DNA of 64,000 nucleotides. Origin: Lachnospiraceae bacterium. GTDB lineage: Bacteria; Bacillota; Clostridia; Lachnospirales; Lachnospiraceae. Both the position numbers and the translations under genes were made by a program. Below the pieces are notes generated by a model, which was not told the DNA's origin, ran no database searches, and worked only from the letters and a program-made list of their open reading frames with translations. Each line of letters starts with the position of its first letter. Position 1 is the stretch's first letter. Location of the stretch: contig CABJBK010000002.1 in NCBI GenBank assembly GCA_902363825.1, positions 248,001 through 312,000 of the forward strand, read 5' to 3'. Below, piece by piece: positions 29,153 through 33,342 of this stretch.

Positions 29153-29577
29153 TCACAACGTATTTTTATCAAATGCCGGGTTAAACGCGTAATAATTTTT
29201 GCTGTCGAGATGTTCTCTCACCATATTTAAGCCCTCACCGAAGCGCTGGAAGTGTACGATCTCCCTTGCTCTTAAAAAGCGGATCGGATCGCAGACCTCC
29301 GGATCTTTCACCAGACGTAAAATATTGTCATACGTCTTTCTCGCTTTCTGCTCCGCCGCCATATCTTCAAACAGATCCGTGATCGGATCGCCGCTCGACT
29401 GGAACTGGTTTGCGTTAAACGGCACTCCTCCCGCCGACTGCGGCCAGATCCCTACCGTGTGATCGGTATAGTACGGCGCAAACCCGGATGCCTTGATCTC
29501 ATCCATCGTAAGATTTCTTGTAAGCTGATGCACGATCGCAGCGACGATCTCAAGATGCGCCAGTTCTTCGGTACCTA
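29153..29577 (-). pseudogene. cotJC: cotJC, 3' part (split manganese-catalase-type coat gene)
   Basis: This is the C-terminal two thirds of CotJC, in frame from the repeat core: GTEELAHLEIVAAI, then VHQLTRNLT, then AAEQKARKTYDNILRL and REIVHFQRFGEGL. These hold the ExxH, Glu and ExxxH-type ligands expected for the dimanganese site. The part has no start codon of its own that fits the family; a GTG at 29533 is only a shadow start. The N-terminal 63 codons lie at 32665-32855. Joining at the shared repeat gives a complete protein of about 201 aa. It is therefore probably a segment of a reversibly split gene rather than decay: no stop or frameshift is present. Confidence 0.9.
29568..29577 (-). 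repeat. Left attachment core (recombinase end)
   Basis: TAGGTACCGA on the minus strand, identical to the copy at 32665-32674. Its TAG is also the stop codon of the recombinase. The cotJC frame continues from it as GGT ACC GAA GAA CTG. Confidence 0.88.
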
Positions 29578-30780
29578 CCTTTGCAGTGCAGTACGCCAGA
29601 CCCTCCCGTCCCAGAACATGTAGAGCAGATCATTTTCCCCGATGATGATACTTTTTAACCCCGCAGCATCTTTCCTGCCATCCAGACGCGCACCGCTTTT
29701 TTCTTCCGCCTCGAGAAAGCCCTGATACAGCACCGGATCCGCCACGCGCTTTCCGGCACAGCCCGATCTTTTTCTTCCGTATTCTGCCACATTCGCGCAG
29801 AGCCAGCTCTGGGAGATACTTCCGTCCCGCCGTCTGCGCACCCTGCTCACGCAGGTACTGCCACAGCATCCGCACCTCACCTTTCCACTGCACCAGTAAC
29901 GGTTCCGGTATTTTTCCATCTCCTCCGGCGCTCTTTTCTTTTCGGATAACCGCGCCTGCGCTTCCAAAAAAAGCTGTCTTGAAATGATCGCGGGATGATG
30001 GTCTTTTTGTATGACAAATTCCTCCGCCCCGTCATTCTTTCTTTTTGCATGCGTCAGATAATCCGCGGTATACGTCTTTTTCTGCACCAGATCTCCCACA
30101 TATTTTTCATTTTTTAGGATCCGGCTCACCGCAAGATCCGTCCATGGATTTTTTCGTGCGGTCAGATATCCCTCGGCGTTTAATTCCCGGGCGATCTCTC
30201 CGGTCTTCTTTTTTTCTTTTACATAGTTCCGGTAGATCCTTTGCACCACCTCTGCTTCCGCCTCACAAACACTTAATACCCCGTGATCCAGCTCATACCC
30301 GAACAGCCTTCTGCCGAAAACGATTCCTCGCTCCATCTGGCGTTTCTGCCCCCATTTCACCCGCTGCGATATTTTTCGGCTCTCCTCCTGTGCCATGGAT
30401 GCCATAAGCGTCAGCCGGATCTCTCCGTCATTTTCTCTTGTATCGATGTGATCCAGAATAAAAAATACACCCACGCCAAATGTGCGCAGTGTGCGCACGG
30501 CAATGAGTGTATCTACGGTATTTCGCGCAAAACGGCTGACCTCTTTCGTTAAGATCAGATCTATCTTTCCCGTTTTCGCGTCTTCCATCATCTGCTGAAA
30601 AGCTTCTCTTTTTTTTACGCTGGTTCCGGAAATGCCCTCGTCTGCGTAGATCCCGGCAAATTTCCAGTTTTCTTCTTCTTTTTTTTGAATAAAGGACGCA
30701 AAATATTCCTGCTGGTTTTTTAGGGAATTCTGCTGATCGTCCAGCTCGGTAGAAACTCTGCAATATGCGGCAACTTTCAT
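29575..30780 (-). CDS. Large-type serine site-specific recombinase of the cotJC element
   Basis: 401-aa recombinase likely to cut and rejoin the repeat cores at the element ends. The resolvase catalytic domain is at about 1-145 (YCRVS with catalytic Ser10, SRFARN with the active-site Arg, ASMAQEESRKIS). Then come a recombinase DNA-binding domain (about 155-270) and a zinc ribbon (CSGKVRCGCCGSTC ... C ... C, about 297-341). The coiled-coil and C-terminus are short, making it smaller than typical phage integrases. ATG 30780 lies after CAGGTG; the GTG three codons upstream overlaps that site. The stop codon is part of the attachment core. A sigma-E-type -10 lies 22 bp upstream. Confidence 0.93.
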   Translation of the reverse strand: MKVAAYCRVSTELDDQQNSLKNQQEYFASFIQKKEEENWKFAGIYADEGISGTSVKKREAFQQMMEDAKTGKIDLILTKEVSRFARNTVDTLIAVRTLRTFGVGVFFILDHIDTRENDGEIRLTLMASMAQEESRKISQRVKWGQKRQMERGIVFGRRLFGYELDHGVLSVCEAEAEVVQRIYRNYVKEKKKTGEIARELNAEGYLTARKNPWTDLAVSRILKNEKYVGDLVQKKTYTADYLTHAKRKNDGAEEFVIQKDHHPAIISRQLFLEAQARLSEKKRAPEEMEKYRNRYWCSGKVRCGCCGSTCVSRVRRRRDGSISQSWLCANVAEYGRKRSGCAGKRVADPVLYQGFLEAEEKSGARLDGRKDAAGLKSIIIGENDLLYMFWDGRVWRTALQR

Positions 30781-30801
30781 GGTTCTCACCTGTTTTTTAT
30801 C

Positions 30802-30829
30802 AGTGTATGCCGCATTTTTTTCTTCATTC
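30802..30829 (-). promoter_or_regulatory. Sigma-E-like promoter of the recombinase gene
   Basis: CATACACT (30802-30809) is a full match to the sigma-E -10 consensus CATACAHT. GAATGAA (30823-30829), 13 bp upstream, is a weaker -35 (4 of 7). In Bacillus the skin recombinase gene spoIVCA is sigma-E-dependent; the parallel is an inference. Confidence 0.55.
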
Positions 30830-30844
30830 CCCGTTTTCTTTTTT

Positions 30845-31498
30845 CTAACGCTCTAAGAAAGCAAGGATATCTTTGGGTGTGTCCGCAAAATACTTTGCCC
30901 CGTGTGCTTCCAGAAATGCCCGGTCACGGAATCCCCAGGTCACGCTGATACAGGAAAGTCCCGCGTTTTTTGCGGTTTCAATGTCCACATCCGAGTCTCC
31001 GACATAGACACTGTGCGCGCTGTCGCTTCCGAGTCTTTTCATCGCCTCAAACGCCGTATCCGGTGCCGGTTTCCGGCGGATCCCGGTCTTTTCACCGATC
31101 GCCACCCCGATCTTTCCTTTAAAATACAGATCCCGCAGCTGCTGCACCGCGAAATCTCCTTTATTGGATACAATGGCAAGCTTCATGCCCTGCGCGTTTA
31201 ACTGATCGAGCAGCTCCGGTATCCCCGCATAAGGACACGTCTTCTTCGCGCAGTTTTCTCCGTAATGTGCGCAGAAATCTGTAAACACCGCCTGAAACTG
31301 CTCGTCTGTCACGTCAGACGGCAATGCACGCTCCATCAGCTTTTTCAATCCGTTTCCGACAAAACGGCGCACTTCATCGATCGTGTGCGTGTGAAACCCA
31401 TACTTGTCCATCGCATAATTTACACTGTCTGTCAGATCTTCCAGGGTATTAAGCAATGTTCCGTCCAGATCAAAAATTACGGTATCATAGTTTTTCAT
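30845..31498 (-). CDS. HAD-superfamily phosphatase, Gph/PGP-like
   Basis: 217-aa HAD hydrolase with the nucleophile motif VIFDLDGTLLNTLEDL at about 6-21, a helical cap (about 25-85), motif II VSNKGD and motif IV VGDSDVDIETAKNAG. It resembles phosphoglycolate phosphatase and pyrophosphatase PpaX; the substrate cannot be set. ATG 31498 has AAGGAG nearby. It is 18 nt downstream of lrgB and inside the cotJC element, so it is cargo rather than part of the coat operon. Confidence 0.9.
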   Translation of the reverse strand: MKNYDTVIFDLDGTLLNTLEDLTDSVNYAMDKYGFHTHTIDEVRRFVGNGLKKLMERALPSDVTDEQFQAVFTDFCAHYGENCAKKTCPYAGIPELLDQLNAQGMKLAIVSNKGDFAVQQLRDLYFKGKIGVAIGEKTGIRRKPAPDTAFEAMKRLGSDSAHSVYVGDSDVDIETAKNAGLSCISVTWGFRDRAFLEAHGAKYFADTPKDILAFLER

Positions 31499-31516
31499 AG
31501 TCTTCTCCTTATCCAA

Positions 31517-32209
31517 TTAATACAGATTCGCAAAAACAGACGCGCCGATTACCGTGATAAGACCCGCAACCGCAATGGCAAGACTGCTCATGGCTCCTTC
31601 TACTTCTCCAAGTTCCATCGCCCGGGCGGTTCCGATCGCATGCGCCGAAGTTCCGAGTGCCACACCCTTTGCAACCGCTTCCTTGATATGGAAAATCTTA
31701 AACACTGCCTCTCCGATGATATTTCCAAATACACCGGTAATGATGATCACTGCTACGGTAACCGTGACAAGGCCGCCAAGCTCTTCCGACACGCCCATCC
31801 CGATCGCAGTTGTGATCGACTTCGGGAGCAGTGTCACATACATCTGATGGTCAAACCCGCATATCACGCAGAGCCCGAGCACCGACAAAATACTGGTGAG
31901 CACGCCCGCAACGATCCCGCCGCAGATTGCTTTATAGTTACTTTTTAACATGGAAAGCTGCTGATAAAGCGGTACCGCAAGGCATACCGTAGCCGGTGTG
32001 AGCAGGTAGCTCAAATATTTTGCGCCCTCGTTATAACTTTCATAATCCACACCGGTTCCCGCAAGGATCACCATCACGACCACGATCGCAATCAGCAGTG
32101 GATTGAAAAGCGCCAGGTTGAATTTTCTCTTTAATAAAAGTCCGATCTCATATCCGGCAATGCTTACAAACACGCCGAAGAATACAGAGGTACTAAGCAT
32201 CTTGTCCAT
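31517..32209 (-). CDS. lrgB: LrgB/CidB-family membrane protein
   Basis: 230-aa protein with several hydrophobic segments and the LrgB signatures (FNPLLIAIVVVMVIL, LLTPATVCLAVPLYQQ, LPKSITTAIGMGVSEELGG, GTSAHAIGTARAMELGE). With LrgA it forms a membrane pair linked to pyruvate transport and to control of murein hydrolase activity in other bacteria. It overlaps the end of lrgA by 17 bp and is part of the element cargo. Confidence 0.93.
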   Translation of the reverse strand: MDKMLSTSVFFGVFVSIAGYEIGLLLKRKFNLALFNPLLIAIVVVMVILAGTGVDYESYNEGAKYLSYLLTPATVCLAVPLYQQLSMLKSNYKAICGGIVAGVLTSILSVLGLCVICGFDHQMYVTLLPKSITTAIGMGVSEELGGLVTVTVAVIIITGVFGNIIGEAVFKIFHIKEAVAKGVALGTSAHAIGTARAMELGEVEGAMSSLAIAVAGLITVIGASVFANLY

Positions 32210-32564
32210 CGTCCGCCTTGCCTCCCTTTCGTATGATAAACTGTGTCACAAGTCCTGTTACCGCCATGACAACGACTGTTGTGATCAACGTGACCGCTAT
32301 AAGCGGTACGCAGATCCCTTTGATCTGTGCCCAGGAATCCATCAGCCCTACGGCCGCCGGAATAAACATCATCGGCATGATCTCGATCAGAAATGTCGCT
32401 GCCTCCTTCACCTGATCCAGTTTTAAAATGCCGGTGCAAAGCGCAAGCAGCATCAGAACCAGACCGTAAATGCTTGCCGGGATCGGAAGCGGAATGACAT
32501 ACTTTAACGCCTCTCCGAGGAACGTGACTGCCAAAATAATTCCAAATTGTTTCATGAATTTCAT
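32193..32564 (-). CDS. lrgA: LrgA/CidA-family holin-like membrane protein
   Basis: 123-aa protein with four hydrophobic segments and the LrgA pattern (FLGEALKYVIPLPIPASIYG, IMPMMFIPAAVGLMD). LrgA-type proteins are the holin-like partner of LrgB. It is the first gene inside the right end of the cotJC element, read toward the recombinase, with its own promoter 38 bp upstream. Confidence 0.92.
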   Translation of the reverse strand: MKFMKQFGIILAVTFLGEALKYVIPLPIPASIYGLVLMLLALCTGILKLDQVKEAATFLIEIMPMMFIPAAVGLMDSWAQIKGICVPLIAVTLITTVVVMAVTGLVTQFIIRKGGKADDGQDA

Positions 32565-32601
32565 AATCGCATCTCTTTTCTTTTTCTTCTGTCAATGTGA
32601 T

Positions 32602-32630
32602 ATTGTATAACTCAGCATTCGATTCGTCAA
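32602..32630 (-). promoter_or_regulatory. Sigma-A-type promoter of lrgA inside the element
   Basis: TTGACG (32625-32630) and TACAAT (32602-32607) have 17-bp spacing. Both boxes lie between the right repeat core and lrgA, so the cargo has its own vegetative-type promoter. Confidence 0.65.
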
Positions 32631-32664
32631 CCATTCTTTTTCCCGATTTTTTTGTACTGCTGCA

Positions 32665-32674
32665 TCGGTACCTA
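32665..32674 (-). repeat. Right attachment core
   Basis: TAGGTACCGA on the minus strand, second copy. On its outer side the cotJC frame reads LLTDIGT; on its inner side the sequence reads GATGCAGCAGTAC, which with the other inner flank gives ACTGC/GCAGT arms around the core of the predicted circle. Confidence 0.88.
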
Positions 32675-32855
32675 TATCGGTCAGCAGACCGGAAACTTTG
32701 CGGTACGGCATGGAATATCTCTGGGAGAGGTAACGCATGGACGCGCCCATTTCGCCGTCTGGGCCTCCATACTGACTCAAGATACACTGTGCGATCTTCG
32801 GGTTTGGATTTGTGATCTTTACCGGATACTGCAATCTCTTTTCATAATTCCACAT
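32665..32855 (-). pseudogene. cotJC: cotJC, 5' part (split manganese-catalase-type coat gene)
   Basis: The first 63 codons of CotJC (start MWNYEKRLQYPVKI, then QYGGPDGEMGASMRYLSQRY and LLTDIGT) end at the repeat core. Read on into the element, the frame diverges from the family (DAAVQKNREKEW...) and stops at 32592. GGAAGGAGG precedes the ATG, which overlaps the cotJB stop as TAATG. CotJC is an inner spore-coat protein of the manganese-catalase family. The split falls just before the ExxH ligand motif, so the truncated product cannot form the metal site. Confidence 0.92.
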
Positions 32856-33157
32856 TAGCAAGCTCCTCCTTCCCATGGCAGCGGCATGGATGCCCAGTCA
32901 AAGGTACACTCCGGCGTGGCGAGATCCACCGTGAGCGGTCCGTACAATCTCGCGTATTCGCGCAGCGCCTCTTCCCTCAGTTTTTTATAATGATTGAAAT
33001 AACTGATCGCGTCCGTATCCTCCGGATGTGTATCCAGATACAGTGTGATATCATTTACCGCAAAGCTGATCTTTGTAATGTACGCGTACAGCTGCTGTCT
33101 TTTCATCTGTGCCGCATTCCCTGCTCTGTTCGGATTCCGGTTCATGGTCTGGTTCAT
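32855..33157 (-). CDS. cotJB: Spore coat protein CotJB
   Basis: 100-aa CotJB-family protein, an inner spore-coat component that works with CotJC. The family features are visible: KRQQLYAYITKISFAVNDI, LYLDTHPEDTDAISYFNHY, and the end TFDWASMPLPWEGGAC. It overlaps cotJA by 4 bp (ATGA) and cotJC by 1 bp. The N-terminal Asn/Arg-rich stretch is longer than in Bacillus (about 87 aa). Confidence 0.93.
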   Translation of the reverse strand: MNQTMNRNPNRAGNAAQMKRQQLYAYITKISFAVNDITLYLDTHPEDTDAISYFNHYKKLREEALREYARLYGPLTVDLATPECTFDWASMPLPWEGGAC

Positions 33158-33312
33158 TTTCTTTCCATCCTCCTTCCGAGAAACGGCTTATTCAGTTCCG
33201 GAAAAATCGTTCCGATCATCAGTGCTTTTTCCGGCTCATACACCTTATAGAAATTCTGCCACGGCACATATGCCATCGCGACAACCTGGTCTTTGCAACT
33301 ATCGTTTTCCAT
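33154..33312 (-). CDS. cotJA: Spore coat-associated protein CotJA
   Basis: 52-aa CotJA-type protein (AMAYVPWQNFYKVYEPEKAL, GTIFPELNKPFLGR). It opens the cotJA-cotJB-cotJC operon made in the mother cell. ATG 33312 is chosen because the upstream in-frame ATG would translate the AAGGAGGG ribosome site itself. Confidence 0.9.
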   Translation of the reverse strand: MENDSCKDQVVAMAYVPWQNFYKVYEPEKALMIGTIFPELNKPFLGRRMERK

Positions 33313-33342
33313 ACAAAAAGATCCCTCCTTTTTCATTCTTTA

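Follow-up and report, generated by a model that had tools for sequence, protein, structure and literature searches.

How can a spore coat gene be read when its coding sequence is cut in two and the halves lie 3.1 kb apart? This question is raised by cotJC in a 64,000-nucleotide stretch of a Lachnospiraceae bacterium genome (assembly GCA_902363825.1, contig CABJBK010000002.1, positions 248,001 to 312,000 of the forward strand), hereafter the window, within which feature coordinates are counted. On its minus strand, cotJA (33154..33336; 60 amino acids, aa; Pfam PF11007, E 6e-20) and cotJB (32855..33157; 100 aa; PF12652, E 5.7e-27) are complete open reading frames (ORFs), and cotJB overlaps both cotJA and the ATG of cotJC. 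The coat protein then breaks off after codon 62 (TDIG), at the end of a 5′ piece (codons 1-62; 32670..32855, minus strand) whose reading, without excision, would run into an intervening element and reach an 87-aa dead end. It continues from codon 63 (TEELAHLE) at 29572, in a 3′ piece (29153..29572, minus strand) that extends to the stop codon and has no start of its own at the junction; both pieces were delimited from the ORF list and the join, the 5′ piece also from the sequence itself. The element between them (29578..32674) measures 3,097 bp core to core. Its 10-bp core, TAGGTACCGA, occurs exactly twice in the whole window, both times on the minus strand and 3,097 bp apart, with the right copy (32665..32674) at the 5′ junction and the left copy (29568..29577) at the 3′ junction, each being one half of an attachment site. 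The core-to-core join reads TDIGTEELAHLE and yields an intact 201-aa CotJC, with no codon gained or lost. A 401-aa serine recombinase (29575..30780, minus strand) abuts the 3′ junction, its 3′ end lying 3 bp from the junction reference point and its stop codon, TAG, forming bases 1 to 3 of the left core.

A sequence-only reading of the window had described this layout, that is, complete and coupled cotJA and cotJB, a cotJC that stops making sense after LLTDIGT and resumes in frame 3.1 kb away, the same 10-bp core at both ends, a join of about 201 aa without codon change, and an element-borne serine recombinase with its stop inside the core; the Pfam matches, ORFs, overlaps and coordinates bear out every part of it. 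The most probable explanation, in our judgement, is that cotJC is split by a recombinase-bearing element and that the recombinase joins the TAGGTACCGA cores, frees a circle and restores the gene, likely in the mother cell at sporulation. The earlier comparison with skin, the element that interrupts sigK, fits the anatomical and evolutionary tests described here (the join, the abutting recombinase, intact alleles in relatives, purifying selection and a sigma-E-like -10 element), and it is within that comparison that we infer excision and its timing in the window.

The split of cotJC in the window is far from a chance arrangement, because the same codon is broken in other loci and the same cargo order is found in two relatives. 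Breaks at the window's codon were found in 70 other loci that hold the 5′ half and 14 that hold the 3′ half. A recombinase scan of genome contigs returned 80 loci, ranked by likeness to the query and hence biased to its kin, and a cotJC piece is present in 75 of them, being absent from the stretches L015, L020, L062, L074 and L080. On L015, several related serine recombinase frames share a single stretch. According to the record titles, the hosts include Lachnospiraceae, Oscillospiraceae, Monoglobaceae, Peptococcaceae and Caldicoprobacter. The same four element genes, in the same order and at the same cotJC codon, are shared by the window and two relatives, L001, which came from the recombinase scan, and L141 (genome G154), which was found through CotJC. 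The initial 31 cotJC codons of G001, the genome from which L001 comes, lie on another contig, and the G001 copy is therefore broken at a further position, site 1, as well. As to the second cotJC copy whose presence had been named as a refutation, only pieces of the gene are found in these two closest relatives (3 matches in G001, 2 in G154), a comparison confined to these relatives.

Both halves of cotJC are under purifying selection among the three carriers. For the 3′ half, the ratio of nonsynonymous to synonymous substitution rates (dN/dS) is 0.023 between the window and L141 and 0.037 between L141 and L001, while the window and L001 differ by 7.5 nonsynonymous and 72.5 synonymous changes, with dS saturated. 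For the 5′ half the ratio is 0.124 (window and L141, codons 1-62), and 0.038 and 0.061 when codons 29-62 are compared; for comparison, the neighbouring intact gene mgsA gives 0.014-0.059. Because the protein is kept while silent sites diverge, a gene dead since the insertion is disfavoured, provided that the insertion is shared by descent. Among distinct 3′ pieces broken near the same codon (site 2), 39 of 40 have no stop between codon 66 and the point where the match ends (codon 176 at the furthest), and the stop in the remaining one, L152, lies inside an element, past the site-3 break of that copy.

The frequency of broken cotJC was estimated in an even sample of 299 genomes from the family to which the Lachnospiraceae isolate G004 belongs. 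A CotJC match was obtained in 184 of them, many matches being full-length and uninterrupted, which answers the earlier proposal to look for an uninterrupted cotJC in relatives. From these 184 genomes, 78 were picked for a weak or partial best match and searched again together with G004, 79 in all. Pieces on both sides of a break site were found in 54 of the 79, that is, in at least 54 of the 184 genomes (22, 26, 10 and 2 genomes for sites 1 to 4), and the other 25 were not classed as broken under the census rule. This count is a lower bound among the matches listed, as strong full-length matches stayed outside the second search and the rule missed two visible cases (G061 and G275). The two pieces share a contig and a strand, in the right order, in 33 genome-site pairs, with distances of 2.4-118 kb between them; several elements may lie within the longest of these. 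The gene mgsA served as a control in 38 genomes with broken cotJC: it was matched in 37, of which 18 have a close orthologue that is in every case near full length and the other 19 only a distant homologue, and no broken copy was seen in the table, which was judged by reading. In G092, a cotJC 3′ piece (codons 57-199) occurs twice on one strand, about 3.5 kb apart (C68:14660-18631).

More than one element can occupy the same gene. In G017, which has no intact cotJC match, four pieces are spread over 27 kb with gaps of 6,923, 14,257 and 5,212 bp, and together they join to a complete protein, placing three elements in one gene. The site-3 element of this genome (L142/L143, contig positions 10972-25229) carries what by eye is an apparent sugar-catabolic operon, with NanE-, NanK- and NanA-like genes and an ABC sugar transporter.

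Leaving L168 aside, the breaks fall into four clusters, at codons 28-33, 59-68, 133-136 and 172-177. In a phmmer alignment, residues E35, E65/H68, E136 and H169 of the joined CotJC correspond to E35, E66/H69, E148 and H181 of the manganese catalase 1jku, which we take to be its dimanganese ligands. Each cluster lies at or within about 8 codons of one ligand motif. Among 49 distinct junction pairs (10, 26, 8 and 5 for sites 1 to 4), the two sides share at least 4 identical bases in register at the join in 40 and at least 6 in 28; the core spans cover equally good joins and the two sides are not identical in every case. The join script considered a join only if it kept the frame, contained no stop and met at the same codon position on both sides; the in-frame property is partly by construction for this reason, and the shared bases are the independent evidence.

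The clades of the recombinases follow the break sites, with two at site 2. The underlying tree, built by a quick method that carries a long-branch warning, includes 89 recombinases with a length of 380 aa or more and a 3′ end within 260 bp of a junction. A branch with support 100 separates the 5 site-3 recombinases from all others, another with the same support does so for the 5 at site 4, and 8 site-1 recombinases form one clade (support 99), the ninth so labelled, L064, having a site-2 junction. At site 2, a main clade is accompanied by a separate group of three (L159, L161 and L175) with shifted cores. On the basis of these site-wise clades and the two at site 2, at least five recombinase lineages have reached cotJC, and the position of the three outside the main site-2 clade suggests that the ligand motif there was reached independently. 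In these three, as well as in L176 and G196, whose recombinases are not part of the tree, the cores are displaced to codons 61-68. In the common site-2 class (L145, L149, L051 and others), the recombinase frame crosses the junction and runs antisense into cotJC; its C-terminus would therefore change on excision, a change that could act as a switch. Nearly identical recombinases, with branch lengths near 0, are found in different species (L004 and L006; L044, L047 and L053).

The recombinase of the window carries the canonical domain set of a large serine integrase, with Resolvase (PF00239, E 1e-33), Recombinase (PF07508, E 2.7e-26) and Zn_ribbon_recom (PF13408, E 5.6e-6) matches. It is unusually short at its C-terminal end: past the column of window residue 345, the alignment holds 56 residues in the window, 59 in L141 and 77 in L001 (read-through included), while 38 of the other 41 rows hold 152-239 residues and three (L160, L028 and L073) hold 99-129. 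In the predicted structure, the zinc ribbon is followed by short helices and three strands. As judged from this comparison, the enzyme is without the coiled-coil stretch of its longer relatives, which would be expected between the zinc ribbon and the C-terminal strands; the missing stretch is presumed to be the coiled coil from the usual domain order. Within a list of the 120 best-matching proteins, the top ten have 380-452 aa and at least 61% identity, and the one after them has 537 aa and 56%. The best full-length fold match, also found by sequence, is the SP-beta integrase YokA, which we take to be SprA, the enzyme of the spsM rearrangement. The frequency of cotJC breaks, the four break sites and the shortness of the recombinase all go beyond what the sequence-only reading had reported.

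The other three element genes lie, like the recombinase, on the cotJC strand. They encode an LrgA/CidA-like membrane protein (lrgA, 32193..32564; PF03788, E 1.5e-32), an LrgB/CidB-like membrane protein (lrgB, 31517..32209; PF04172, E 1.3e-81) and a HAD-family, phosphoglycolate-phosphatase-like phosphatase (30845..31498; PF13419, E 6.9e-40); lrgB has a single match in each of G001 and G154, located inside the element. At the element edge, ahead of lrgA, a sigma-A-like promoter (32602..32630, minus strand) reads TTGACG-17-TACAAT in the window and L001 and TTGACG-17-TAAAAT in L141, with the 17-nt spacing kept in all three; as the scan gave 7 such sites against 5.3 expected, the support comes from conservation rather than from the match itself. 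Upstream of the recombinase, a sigma-E-like element (30802..30829, minus strand) reads GAATGA-14-CATACACT, so labelled by the sigma-E consensus, and a CATA-type -10 stands 29-34 nt ahead of the recombinase start codon in the window, L001 and L141. Taken together, these putative promoters suggest that the cargo is expressed in growth and the recombinase in the mother cell. The wider test kept 81 of 121 upstream regions after removal of near-copies, and 13 recombinases without a placeable start, site-4 ones included, were left out of it. A sigma-E/K-like -10 was found in 16 of the 81 (shuffled mean 8.9, maximum 17 in 100 shuffles); when the regions were split by a loose ribosome-binding-site pattern, the larger subset of 69 had 15 (shuffled mean 7.1, maximum 13) and the remaining 12 regions had 1 (shuffled mean 1.3).

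In the mechanism that these features make probable, the recombinase is predicted to cut and join both TAGGTACCGA cores, whereby the element would leave as a circle and full cotJC would return. The crossover would fall at the central GG of TAGGTA, and excision would be confined to the mother cell through the sigma-E-type promoter. The enzyme, having no coiled coil, would need no directionality factor. Under their own sigma-A-like promoter, lrgA, lrgB and the phosphatase gene would serve the growing cell and be lost only in the terminal mother cell. In the attachment site attP reconstructed for the window, 10 of 22 dyad positions match against 5.1 in shuffled sequences (p 0.018, uncorrected), and at least 12 do so in 14 of 26 site-2 pairs. 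We put at about even the chances of a broader account, in which cotJC is carried in fragments throughout the Clostridia. Five or more lineages of recombinase would have captured its four metal-ligand motifs, and some mother cells would rebuild it from up to four pieces by successive excisions before the coat is made. The elements would by now be stable islands with metabolic operons (in two of the window's relatives, the single lrgB found lies in one), and the recombinase of the window's lineage would have lost its coiled coil to become excision-only and factor-free.

Several results weigh against excision at sporulation. An intact cotJC stands beside the broken copy in 6 of the 54 genomes, and the window's own genome may hold an intact second cotJC too. 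The excess of sigma-E/K motifs is modest, and over all 81 regions it stays below the highest shuffle (16 against 17). No directionality factor was recognised among the element genes by the family scan or in the ORFs, although no search was aimed at such factors. In L001 the attP dyad is weak, at 9 of 22 positions (p 0.043), and L141, at 5 of 22, shows none; fewer than 4 bases are shared at the join in 9 of the 49 pairs, namely G003 and G314 at site 3, L148, G020, G021, L012, L036 and L067 at site 2, and L168 at site 1, whose join has a low score of 42. The joined attP pattern of the commonest site-2 class (the window's own attP not being among the patterns searched for) occurred in 0 viral contigs and in 1 of 397 genomes, and these searches revealed neither an excised circle nor a rejoined allele. 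The single genome match, in G224, was dropped; it is flanked by an MFS transporter and a LytTR regulator, its contig carries no recombinase, and an intact cotJC is present on a different contig.

In an alternative account, the elements would be simply selfish, with cotJC a conserved and dispensable landing site, carriers that are cotJC-negative, and excision serving transfer and not sporulation. The intact copies kept beside broken ones in several genomes favour this view, and so do the recombinases that are nearly identical across species, which suggest that the site-2 class concerned, in contrast to that of the window, is currently moving by horizontal transfer. Related recombinases also occur in 533 phage records, every one below 60% identity. 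Among ten loci on viral contigs with a related recombinase, three hold a cotJC or cotJB piece; within the stretch examined, phage carriage at cotJC thus finds no support in most of the ten. What makes selfishness unlikely is the strong purifying selection on both halves in three carriers, if the insertion is shared by descent, together with the stop-free state of all but one of the site-2 3′ pieces in the tested stretch despite their lack of a start, the sole stop lying past the next break. A dead gene would likewise not favour what is seen in G017, where three elements lie in one cotJC and yet a complete protein results when the pieces are joined.

Each half is intact coding sequence, and the 3′ half contains an internal GTG start (126 aa), which might let the two be expressed separately and assemble as a split protein with no DNA excision. 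That start lies after E65/H68, and this ligand motif would therefore be missing from both products; four break sites and up to four pieces make split assembly implausible as a general solution, and matching cores and recombinases would be left unexplained. We consider this very improbable and have rejected it. An artefact of assembly or binning, to which we give almost no credence, has been rejected as well: many loci do come from metagenome-assembled genomes, and some pieces are on different contigs, as in three junction pairs (G003 at site 3, G020 and G021 at site 2), but the 33 contiguous genome-site pairs include contigs of 1.1, 2.9 and 3.2 Mb, cores and recombinases recur, and mgsA is unbroken in the 37 genomes in which it was matched. 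Restoration of cotJC by excision is the reading that we retain.

Developmental gene rearrangement in spore formers has so far been described in scattered single cases. If the cotJC elements work as predicted, it would be routine in gut Clostridia and centred on one coat gene, with several excisions per gene possible. CotJC would then be missed or truncated by annotation in a sizeable share of genomes, and natural serine recombinases without a coiled coil could provide simple excision tools. The system would also offer a testable case of selfish integration at a conserved protein motif that turned into part of a developmental programme.

With regard to known systems, no description of an interrupted cotJC was recognised in the open-licence literature searched. 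A further gene-intervening element, vfbin in spoVFB, belongs to the known cases, and in cyanobacteria the heterocyst elements (in nifD and other genes) likewise rebuild genes by programmed loss in a terminally differentiated cell, in another lineage and with other targets. The cases for which we draw on published accounts are skin in sigK, SP-beta in spsM, gin in gerE and yin in yabG (PMC3416734, PMC10747680, PMC5595907). In Clostridioides difficile R20291, the prophage phi027 is located next to a CotJC-like manganese-catalase gene, CDR20291_1465 (PMC11222575).

The closest likeness is to skin, which in Bacillus subtilis and C. difficile, according to published accounts, interrupts a mother-cell sporulation gene and is removed by a serine recombinase to restore it (PMC5025042, PMC5595907, PMC10747680, PMC3416734). 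The targets differ, that of skin being a sigma factor and that of the present elements a structural coat gene, a manganese-catalase homologue; moreover, the window's element is only 3.1 kb long, contains no recognised phage gene, has a recombinase that seems to be without the coiled-coil stretch, and belongs to a group of which several members can lie in the same gene. SP-beta, with SprA (YokA) and SprB, differs in being an entire, active prophage; it has a directionality factor, and its integrase chain is 545 aa long. In Bacillus cereus ATCC10987, gin resembles the window's element in being non-phage and in interrupting a sporulation gene, from which the serine recombinase GirC removes it during sporulation, but it measures 28.6 kb and has three recombinases and the directionality factor GirX, and the part of its description available to us notes no stacking in one gene (PMC5595907). 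The yin element of Clostridium botulinum V73 is clostridial too, and both its intact gene and its circle have been detected; it is prophage-like and is called unique to its authors' knowledge (PMC10747680), whereas the cotJC elements are widespread and use four sites. The cotJC elements have the anatomical features of known sporulation gene-intervening elements, and what sets them apart from the known cases is the number of sites, the stacking in one gene, how widely they occur and, for the window's element, the non-phage cargo and the short recombinase.

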